From: an uncultured Alphaproteobacteria bacterium
GTDB lineage: Bacteria; Pseudomonadota; Alphaproteobacteria; SP197
Assembly (NCBI GenBank): GCA_943787175.1
Contig: CALSLK010000005.1
Location: 186,001 to 250,000 of the forward strand
Direction of reading: 5' to 3'
Length of the DNA stretch: 64,000 nucleotides
Below the pieces are notes generated by a model. The model did no database searches and was not told the origin of the DNA. It saw nothing but the letters and a program-made list of their open reading frames with translations. Position numbers and translations under genes: made by a program. Of this stretch, positions 46,096 to 63,817 are shown in pieces; the stretch's first letter is position 1, and each line of letters opens with the position of its first letter.

Positions 46096-46278
46096 GGCAC
46101 GCAGAGACGCAGAGGCGCGGAGTCTTACTGGGTGGTTGAAGTTTCGCTCCTGCTCCCGGGAAAACGCGCACTTGCGTTTGTTTGGTTGCCGCGCATGCGC
46201 GGCAGACATCCACATCGTTCAGCGCCAGCTGTTTCGATCACGCGCGGGCATCTCTGCGCCTCTGCGTCTCTGCGTGCC
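46096..46278. repeat. Long palindromic repeat, copy A
   Basis: The 650-base stretch 45862-46511 holds no believable gene. It contains this 183-base inverted repeat. The left arm begins GGCACGCAGAGACGCAGAGG (46096) and its reverse complement closes the element at 46278, with one mismatch over 27 bases. In the middle sits a separate perfect palindrome TGCCGCGCATGCGCGGCA (46187-46204). Copies B (51198-51375) and C (63600-63817) share arms and the central palindrome. In the rest of the gap I see only the small hairpin listed next. Confidence 0.85.
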
Positions 46279-46376
46279 CAAACGATTACGGGACAGGTGC
46301 CGTCGTCGGCATTCAGGCACACAACCCTGACGAGCCCGTCATCGTGCTCGGCGCGGGAGTTCGCGTCCGTGCATGG

Positions 46377-46399
46377 ATTCCCCGGTCAAGCCGGAGAAT
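46377..46399. repeat. Small intergenic hairpin
   Basis: ATTCCCCGG-TCAAG-CCGGAGAAT (46377-46399) is a 9-bp stem with one mismatch and a 5-base loop. This resembles the CCCCGGTCAAGCCGGGG hairpins scattered in many alphaproteobacterial genomes. It lies about 110 bases before the MFS gene. Confidence 0.5.
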
Positions 46400-46511
46400 G
46401 GCTCCCTGGGGGGTAAGAGTACGCGTTGGGTTGTCTGGTGGGATGACCTGCGGGAGACTGGGGTATCCGGGCCGCTTCGGGTGTTGGACCAGCCGTTAAT
46501 CAGGAGCCGAG

Positions 46512-49462: not shown

Positions 49463-51178
<1,716 letters not shown>

Positions 51179-51197: not shown

Positions 51198-51375
51198 GGC
51201 ACGCAGAGGCGCGGAGTTTTAGCGAGTGGTGTCGGAGTCAGACATCATCCGCGATGTGCCTTACTTCAGACTGCTTAGTTGTTTGCCGCGCTAGCGCGGC
51301 AGAAATCCAGTAAGTTCGGCTCGGGCGCCTCATCATCCGCGCTGAACTCTCTGCGCCTCTGCGTCTCTGCGTGCC
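51198..51375. repeat. Long palindromic repeat, copy B
   Basis: A 178-base element between leuA and the GxxExxY gene. Left arm GGCACGCAGAGGCGCGGAG from 51198 (one CGCAGAGA unit shorter than copy A). Right arm ends TCTGCGTCTCTGCGTGCC at 51375. The central perfect palindrome TGCCGCGCTAGCGCGGCA is at 51284-51301. Same architecture as copies A and C. It ends 30 bases beyond the stop codon of the GxxExxY gene. Confidence 0.85.
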
Positions 51376-51404
51376 AACCTTCCTTCTTGCTGACCCCAGG
51401 CGGC

Positions 51405-51791
51405 TCATTCGCTCATGTTGTTCACGACACGGCGTATTCCGTCCTTCATGACCGGTGCACCAAAGTTGAGGAGCAAGCCGACCCTGAGGTCCATCAGCCG
51501 CAGATAGGTCAGCACCTGTTTGGTGTGGACGGGGCTGATGGTCTCTACCGACTTGATCTCTATCACCACGCTTTGCTCGACCAGCAGGTCGATGCGAAAG
51601 GCGTTCTCGAAGTGCATACCGTCGTAGTCGAATGCCGGGTTGATCTGGCGTCCTACGCGCAGACAACGTCGTTCGAGGTCACGTGCAAGTACCAACTCAT
51701 AGACGGACTCGAGAAGGCCAGGGCCCAGACCCTGATGCAGTTTCACGGCGGCATCGACGATCTCGCCGGTCAGATGATTGAGGTCCGTCAT
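51405..51791 (-). CDS. GxxExxY family protein (PD-(D/E)XK nuclease-like)
   Basis: A 128-residue member of the GxxExxY family. The name motif is GLLESVYE in LHQGLGPGLLESVYELVLARDLERRCL. A PD-(D/E)XK-type catalytic pattern follows: FRIDLLVEQSVVIEIKSVE (Asp, then ExK), then TYLRLMDLRVGLLLNFG. The family is widely spread next to repeats, but its biological role is not known to me. The gene is six bases after the DUF4136 gene on the same strand, and its stop lies 30 bases from palindromic repeat B. ATG at 51791. Confidence 0.88.
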   Translation of the reverse strand: MTDLNHLTGEIVDAAVKLHQGLGPGLLESVYELVLARDLERRCLRVGRQINPAFDYDGMHFENAFRIDLLVEQSVVIEIKSVETISPVHTKQVLTYLRLMDLRVGLLLNFGAPVMKDGIRRVVNNMSE

Positions 51792-51797
51792 TGCTCC

Positions 51798-52508
51798 CTA
51801 CCGCACGCAGGTGCTGCTTAGTTGGCTGGTGTCCTGGGTGCCTGGTTGGAGGAAGTTGGAGAAGAGGGCGTCGAAGAGGCAGGCGCTGACGCCGGCGAAG
51901 GAGGGGGTGGCGCCGGAGCTGGTGACCGTGCCTTCATAGGCAGGGTAGAGATCGTCGGCGCTGGAGCGGTCGAGGTCGAACATGCGGAACAGGAAGCTGC
52001 GTTCGTAAACGGTTTCGGTGACGGTGTGATAGCCGGTGACGCCCTGGATCGCGGGGATGTATTCGCTGGATTCATAAGGTTGATAGGTGCCGCTGACCGC
52101 GTCGTAGCGCAGCTGGGTGGTGGTGATGAGCTGGCTTGGGGCCAGGGTGCCGTATTCCTCCACGACCTCGGATGCGCTGTAGGCGCCGATGGCATAGTCG
52201 AGCGTGACGATGAAGTCGGCCTGGTCCTGGCGCTCGACGGGGTGCAGACCCATGGCTGCCAGACGTGCCGCGATCTCGCGCCGGTACTGGTTGAATTCGG
52301 CACTCTGGGCCTGATTGGCCAGGGCCACGATCACAAAACTCTGACCGGCCAGTGCCTGATCAAAGTCCTGAAAACGCACGACATGGGCCAGCACCCTTTG
52401 GGGTTCGGGCGGCGGTGCGACGCAGGCAGCGGTTGCCAGCAGGACCAGAAACGGCGCGAACAGGCGCACCAGACCTGCCCGTTTGCTTGATGGCATCAAC
52501 ATAGTCAT
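51798..52508 (-). CDS. DUF4136 domain lipoprotein
   Basis: A 236-residue exported lipoprotein. Signal peptide with lipobox LLATAAC (Cys near residue 29), proline-rich start of the mature part, then a DUF4136-type domain: FQDFDQALAGQSFVIVA, an EIAARLAAMGLHPVERQDQADFIVTLDYAIG stretch, and FLFRMFDLDRSS. ATG at 52508, with GGGAG upstream. The DUF4136 family is envelope-located and of unknown function. Followed closely by the GxxExxY gene. Diverges from pmbA. Confidence 0.85.
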   Translation of the reverse strand: MTMLMPSSKRAGLVRLFAPFLVLLATAACVAPPPEPQRVLAHVVRFQDFDQALAGQSFVIVALANQAQSAEFNQYRREIAARLAAMGLHPVERQDQADFIVTLDYAIGAYSASEVVEEYGTLAPSQLITTTQLRYDAVSGTYQPYESSEYIPAIQGVTGYHTVTETVYERSFLFRMFDLDRSSADDLYPAYEGTVTSSGATPSFAGVSACLFDALFSNFLQPGTQDTSQLSSTCVR

Positions 52509-52645
52509 GGCGAACTCCCTGCCCCCCAGTGATTTCCCCTGCGCGACACAGGCTAGGCAAAATGGAACATAGCGGCAACGTGCATCTGTGTGATGGGTCA
52601 TAAGGGTGTTCCCATCGGGGCCGATCCGCTTTATGTCGTGGCCCC

Positions 52646-63599: not shown

Positions 63600-63817
63600 G
63601 TCACGCGGAGCCGCGGAGAACGCGGAGTTCGAGTGTGGTCGCTGTCCAGGGATGAACGCGGACATGTTTGCGTATCGACCGGCCGGAACATGGTTGCCGC
63701 GCAAGGCGCGGCAAACAAATCAGACACGCGCACCCTATCGTGTCATCGCGTTCAACACAGTCGCATTGACCCAGCGAAGCCTCCCAGTCCTCCGCGGCTC
63801 CGCGGCTCCGCGTGCCC
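63600..63817. repeat. Long palindromic repeat, copy C
   Basis: A 218-base inverted repeat between the aminotransferase and xseA genes. Left arm GTCACGCGGAGCCGCGGAGA from 63600; right arm ends GGCTCCGCGGCTCCGCGTGCC at 63817. Central palindrome TTGCCGCGC-AAG-GCGCGGCAA (63694-63714). The arm units (GCGGAGCC) differ from copies A and B (GCAGAGAC), but the layout and the GTTGCCGCGC core are the same, so it is a diverged family member. Confidence 0.75.

Follow-up and report, generated by a model that had tools for sequence, protein, structure and literature searches.

The stretch of DNA analysed here (64,000 nt; the window) carries, at the locus of interest, a leuA-like gene (49463..51178, plus strand; a 2-isopropylmalate synthase gene by sequence), an imperfect palindrome (element B, 51198..51375), a GxxExxY gene (51405..51791, minus strand; 128 aa) and a DUF4136 gene (51798..52601, minus strand). 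The first and the last of these are host genes and were used as the two anchors of the site (site B) in the comparison with empty counterparts, the leuA-like gene lying outside of the element. Element B is situated directly 3' of the GxxExxY gene, its end being 30 bases away, as an earlier note on this DNA had described. Two further palindromes, A (46096..46278) and C (63600..63817), have no such gene beside them (also in accordance with the note), since the GxxExxY gene of the window is the only one in its genome.

The three palindromes (about 180-220 bp) have arms and cores in common, and are imperfect to different degrees. Gene-less element A, as delineated by inverted-arm alignment, core and folding, possesses arms of 27 nt (46096-46122 and 46252-46278) that are 96% complementary, with a core at 46188-46203. 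In element B, whose left arm spans about 51198-51216 and whose right arm covers 51346-51377, with the core at 51285-51300, the complementarity amounts to 78% over 32 nt (51196-51227/51346-51377) and to 94% over the inner 16 nt, whilst the likewise gene-less element C (GCGGAG-type units; arms about 63602-63627 and 63781-63816, core 63696-63712) shows 100% over 17 nt (63602-63618/63798-63814) and 88% over a wider stretch of 24 nt (63604-63627/63781-63804). Single-strand folding gave z values of -7.3 (A), -4.6 (B) and -7.6 (C), with 0 of 200 dinucleotide shuffles folding as well. The core GCCGCGC-N2/3-GCGCGGC starts at 46188, 51285 and 63696, thus occurring three times in the window where 0.08 occurrences were expected, and its longer form (TTGCCGCGC-N-GCGCGGCA) was located, by pattern search of the 3.9-Mb genome, solely in A, B and C. 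Alignment, folding and core count thus bear out the three long inverted repeats with a central palindrome that the earlier note had proposed; its claim of common arms holds in so far as the family is real, but the arm type is GCGGAGCC in C and GCAGAGAC in A and B, and the left arm of B has two units instead of three. The shuffles, together with the same-contig controls given below, rule out an artefact of chance or composition. A known RNA family was ruled out as the identity of the repeats, an Rfam search having matched no family, and no tRNA was found near them. A second repeat, of the GGATTCCCCGGTCAAGCCGGAGAATGG type, occupies 46365-46413 and has more copies in the genome of the window and in the congener G004.

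The GxxExxY product matches over its full length the profile TIGR04256 (127.6 bits, cut-off 35, E 2.9e-37), which places it within the GxxExxY family, and PF13366 (PDDEXK_3; 126.9 bits, cut-off 22, E 6.4e-37). Its putative catalytic residues (D68, E78-x-K80 and Q92xxxY96) are conserved across 64 GxxExxY sequences (D68, E78, K80 and Q92 invariant, Y96 at least 90%), in an arrangement that we take to be the signature of the RecB/Cas4 branch. The structure predicted from these 64 sequences (mean pLDDT 95.6) adopts a restriction-endonuclease-like fold, for which the top Foldseek match was the Cas4-type nuclease SSO0001 (E 8e-4, probability 1.0; VIA Z 9.5), followed by AdnAB, lambda exonuclease and archaeal Hjc; a family missing from the VIA table was not counted as evidence, and no solved structure is close to GxxExxY in sequence. 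On the basis of predicted fold and catalytic residues, we are confident that GxxExxY is a Cas4/RecB-like PD-(D/E)XK nuclease with presumptive catalytic activity, in line with the Asp...ExK pattern that had been recognised earlier in the reading frame. While the modelled fold and the D, ExK and QxxxY residues are shared with Cas4/RecB nucleases, the protein differs from these, and from Rpn (a recombination-promoting PD-(D/E)XK family), in being a stand-alone protein of 128 aa that has no CRISPR or helicase context and is encoded between arms. A defence system was set aside as its identity, as the profile searches yielded no more than weak Cas4-like matches. Furthermore, GxxExxY hardly ever occurs on plasmids (8/72,556) and was not encountered in phages (0/50,697), which speaks against carriage by either.

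Screening of bacterial and archaeal genomes yielded 80 GxxExxY loci, which represent about a dozen phyla. Using a bracketing score in which the left flank is aligned to the reverse complement of the right one (threshold of at least 16), we observed that inverted arms enclose the gene at 68 of 79 loci, as compared to 4 of 945 controls, for which positions with matching geometry were taken from the same contigs. Several of the 80 loci, chiefly those of sphingomonads, share a common origin, so that their effective number is lower than 79. Within Flavobacterium the corresponding figures were 16/26 and 1/104; the enrichment of arms at GxxExxY genes over background, a test set by the earlier note beforehand, was therefore found. 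Moreover, 28 of the 35 inverted pairs of periodic arms that lie 300-1000 bp apart in GxxExxY loci enclose the gene. The usual element is 435-480 bp long, has GxxExxY as its only gene and is delimited by terminal inverted repeats, as are TIR insertion sequences and MITEs. Its arms (about 28 nt) are made up of a TTCACGC-type end followed by three 8-nt units (NCRCNNAG), the variants of which include CGCGGAGA, CGCAGAGG, CGCAAAGG, CACGAAGA, CACAGAGG and CGCCAAGT, among others. The two arms of one element carry the same unit variant (unit identity 0.95 between mirrored units, 0.93 when a unit is compared with the remaining ones of its element and 0.80 across elements), and their inter-unit spacers agree more than expected by chance. 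The right arm is often found within the end of the reading frame, conferring a ...SASPRLRVNQ tail on the protein. It is close to certain that the GxxExxY gene and its arms belong to one element. No consistent target-site duplication was seen in 60-odd elements, the relatives being too divergent for exact junctions and element ends to be read.

The gene order of site B (leuA, palindrome, GxxExxY, DUF4136) is the same in the congeners G004 and G009 (L014 and L013, respectively), where remnants of an arm also lie immediately upstream of the GxxExxY start; these are gone in the window. As the gene is usually found inside the arms, its position beside a palindrome points to a decayed composite, and the simplest reading is that the window preserves an arm-gene-(arm-core-arm) arrangement which may have lost the arm upstream of the gene, B being the 3' end of this composite and not an independent neighbour. 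In the gene-lacking congener G005 the leuA and DUF4136 genes are separated by a short gap with neither palindrome nor gene, in five other congeners the next gene directly follows leuA, and in G002 the site holds a degenerate, gene-less palindrome. Site A is empty in G005 and G009 and harbors different nested arms in G004; at sites E5 and E6b, too, G005 has no element, site E6a appeared continuous in the search (a clean alignment was not obtained), and site E2 is common to G004, with a different interior. Repeat positions fixed among relatives, which had been named beforehand as evidence against mobility, were hence not what we encountered: positions vary, and four of the sites (B, A, E5 and E6b) are empty in G005. 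A comparable pattern of presence and absence was recorded between fabD and fabG in sphingomonads (L046, L066, L068, L072, L076, L090, L094, L095, L097, L103 and L261-L370), where a minority of genomes carry a GxxExxY element, whereas in others the junction is empty and measures just a few bases, and scars with a single arm (i.e. solo arms) are present in L291 and L347. The fabD-fabG arms differ between species, yet pair-match within each element. Many elements, such as those between fabD and fabG in sphingomonads, are old and static.

The distribution of arms was assessed by pattern searches of whole genomes (three-unit pattern, with the reversed pattern as control). The genome of the window contains 17 arm matches at about 12 loci, the majority of which are paired palindromes whose cores vary, with nesting in some, so that the three-copy family of the earlier note stands for the core and is too small for the arms. 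Across 143 alphaproteobacterial relatives, 87 arm matches were detected in the 14 genomes that encode GxxExxY vs. 19 in the 129 that do not (Mann-Whitney p 2.5e-6, uncorrected for phylogeny), the latter number being near the reversed-pattern background. Within the genus itself, the species with the gene have 17, 21 and 1 matches, and six of the seven species without it have none (the seventh has an unrelated tandem repeat instead of arms). Similarly, among 150 Flavobacterium genomes, arms were present in 85 of 121 with the gene and in 3 of 29 without it (Fisher p 3e-9, uncorrected for phylogeny), and 50 gene-bearing genomes from many phyla yielded 1360 arm matches vs. 30 for the reversed pattern. 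Solo arms resembled the arms of the gene-containing element of their own genome at 24 of 30 loci (p 0.0009). The association has exceptions on both sides, with strict three-unit arms missing from 7 of the 14 gene-bearing genomes of Alphaproteobacteria and from 36 of the 121 of Flavobacterium, and the gene-lacking Flavobacterium genome G326 having 20 arm matches. A general load of mobile elements as the cause of the arms is argued against by the four-helix-bundle family TIGR02436, which 26 of the 29 GxxExxY-lacking Flavobacterium genomes encode, yet almost none of these have CRCNNAG arms; this family occurs in 146 of 150 Flavobacterium genomes (in up to 17 copies) and does not explain the link between GxxExxY and arms. 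The Flavobacterium genome G263 has 33 matches to the reversed control pattern, which represent some other, unrelated repeat family. Elements nested within or lying beside one another, with arm types GCAGAG and GCGGAG, were noticed in the genome of the window (L142:980-1428 and L140:835-1275), an arrangement that suggests successive insertions.

We consider A, B and C to be probably gene-less relatives of a roughly 450-base GxxExxY element, itself a likely undescribed kind of minimal mobile element; a search of the open-access literature retrieved no description of GxxExxY elements or of S23-type arm elements, GxxExxY or PF13366 being named in 3 papers (in one of them in passing), and the unit sequences appeared in nothing relevant. 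We further lean, with some reserve, towards the view that the nuclease of this element spreads gene-less palindromes in trans by cutting or moving their arms. The parent form would be the 435-480-bp element (two arms and the gene for the predicted nuclease), with the protein made from a single locus or a few loci that are passed on vertically for the most part, an inheritance with which the near-absence of the gene from plasmids and phages fits. The protein may recognise the arms, whose repeated units would suit the binding of a multimer and whose inverted layout would suit a cruciform or hairpin that replication might expose; it would then cut at the element, which may be copied into intergenic sites through strand joining or host repair, and gene-less arm pairs would be moved in the same manner in trans.

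For REP palindromes it has been proposed that they are non-autonomous elements which a domesticated HUH transposase mobilises (PMC8266576), and the earlier note had suggested that GxxExxY proteins may move or process non-autonomous elements in a similar way. The enrichment of arms, the empty sites and the arms that track the gene speak in favor of this suggestion, but the likeness is one of logic only. As with REP/REPINs and RAYT (TnpA-REP), numerous intergenic palindromes are dispersed through the genome and tied to a single, mostly vertical gene, with cognate palindromes adjoining it and passive copies elsewhere. Unlike RAYT, which is an HUH tyrosine transposase, GxxExxY is a predicted PD-(D/E)XK protein and hence falls outside the HUH (Y1) IS200/IS605 type; unlike in REPs, each end is an inverted arm built from 8-nt units in tandem, with the gene between the two arms in an element of 435-480 bp. 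Since both enzyme and ends differ, the system works like REP/RAYT and is not a member of it. With MITEs and TIR insertion sequences it has in common short non-autonomous elements with inverted ends that would be moved in trans, and it differs from them in that it lacks a DDE transposase, showed no target duplication and has ends composed of tandem short repeats.

The 23S rRNA intervening sequences offer another parallel, and with it an explanation at the RNA level that we hold to be unlikely: the arms would pair in the transcript and the stem would be processed (e.g. by RNase III), rendering insertions into operons harmless, with GxxExxY as a passenger or autoregulator and mobility coming from elsewhere. 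The architecture is that of the Coxiella intervening sequence (428 nt, 28-bp terminal inverted repeats and one S23 ORF; PMC4990558), i.e. about 430-480 bp, terminal inverted repeats of about 28 bp and one ORF of about 130 codons; S23-family genes are found outside rRNA within the same kind of arms, and GxxExxY elements are inserted between co-directional genes such as fabD and fabG. On the other hand, arm mismatches read in the sense direction over 80 elements comprise 61 G-U vs. 80 A.C (p 0.13), and since no bias towards G-U is apparent, the constraint looks to be at the DNA level and a sense-RNA stem as the selective constraint is unsupported. Moreover, the units repeat within each arm (which pairing alone would not require), gene-less hairpins occur in large numbers around the genome and the repeats have no Rfam match. 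GxxExxY elements also differ from the rRNA intervening sequences in lying between protein genes (in the window, leuA and DUF4136) and in encoding an unrelated, PD-(D/E)XK-type protein.

It is likewise improbable that the palindromes spread otherwise (by replication slippage or a host recombinase) and that GxxExxY is a palindrome- or hairpin-processing nuclease which limits or resolves them. The proximity of the predicted fold to Cas4, lambda exonuclease and archaeal Hjc would agree with such a role, as would the arms that genome G326 has without the gene, but the gene is placed inside the arms as a unit with matching ends kept across phyla, and genomes lacking it mostly lack arms as well, which a clean-up role does not predict. 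Homing, in which the nuclease would cut particular uninserted sites and gene conversion would copy the element in, could account for the persistence at fabD-fabG, where one insertion point is common to many sphingomonads with empty relatives interspersed; we regard it as very unlikely, given that elements occupy many unrelated loci across phyla and that gene-less copies are scattered. Lastly, ordinary repeats unrelated to the gene (terminators or chance palindromes of GC-rich intergenic DNA) can practically be discounted, for although intergenic hairpins are common in bacterial genomes, the bracketing, co-occurrence, core and folding controls contradict this explanation.

The favored mobile element may have counterparts built around other proteins. 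Four-helix-bundle genes (TIGR02436, S23 family) from Flavobacterium and other genomes (L231-L260) lie within inverted arms in 22 of 29 cases (vs. 0 of 116 controls), with tandem units of 7-8 nt that include GGGGCTA, AGGGAAC, CAGGAGT, GTTTTCC and others. As S23-family genes are thus bracketed too, by other units, a wider class of elements with short-unit arms is suggested, and since this family is not a nuclease, a nuclease is not a general requirement for such arms. The evidence leaves us evenly poised on whether there is a pan-bacterial class of minimal mobile elements in which arms of tandem 7-8-nt units surround one small gene for one of two or more unrelated proteins (a Cas4-like nuclease, using NCRCNNAG units, and S23-type four-helix bundles, using different ones), each of which would have its own gene-less palindromic offspring.

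To our knowledge, bacteria commonly have palindromic repeats between their genes, most of which, REP/RAYT aside, have no known source. The present reading would trace a large palindrome family, represented in about a dozen phyla, to one particular nuclease gene; it offers a testable route for the spread of palindromes and a functional hypothesis for many genes annotated only as 'GxxExxY protein', and the shared architecture connects GxxExxY elements to the question of how S23/IVS elements move.

Two other arrangements of arms came to our attention. Beside GxxExxY genes at L045:8201-8509 and L081:10420-10888, arm units form tandem arrays (repeats of about 90 bp and about 260 bp), which look as if elements amplify head to tail. 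At L108:12423-12817 and L030:4447-4878, inverted arms of 7-nt units lie about 400 bp apart with no GxxExxY between them, and these pairs possibly represent further element families.
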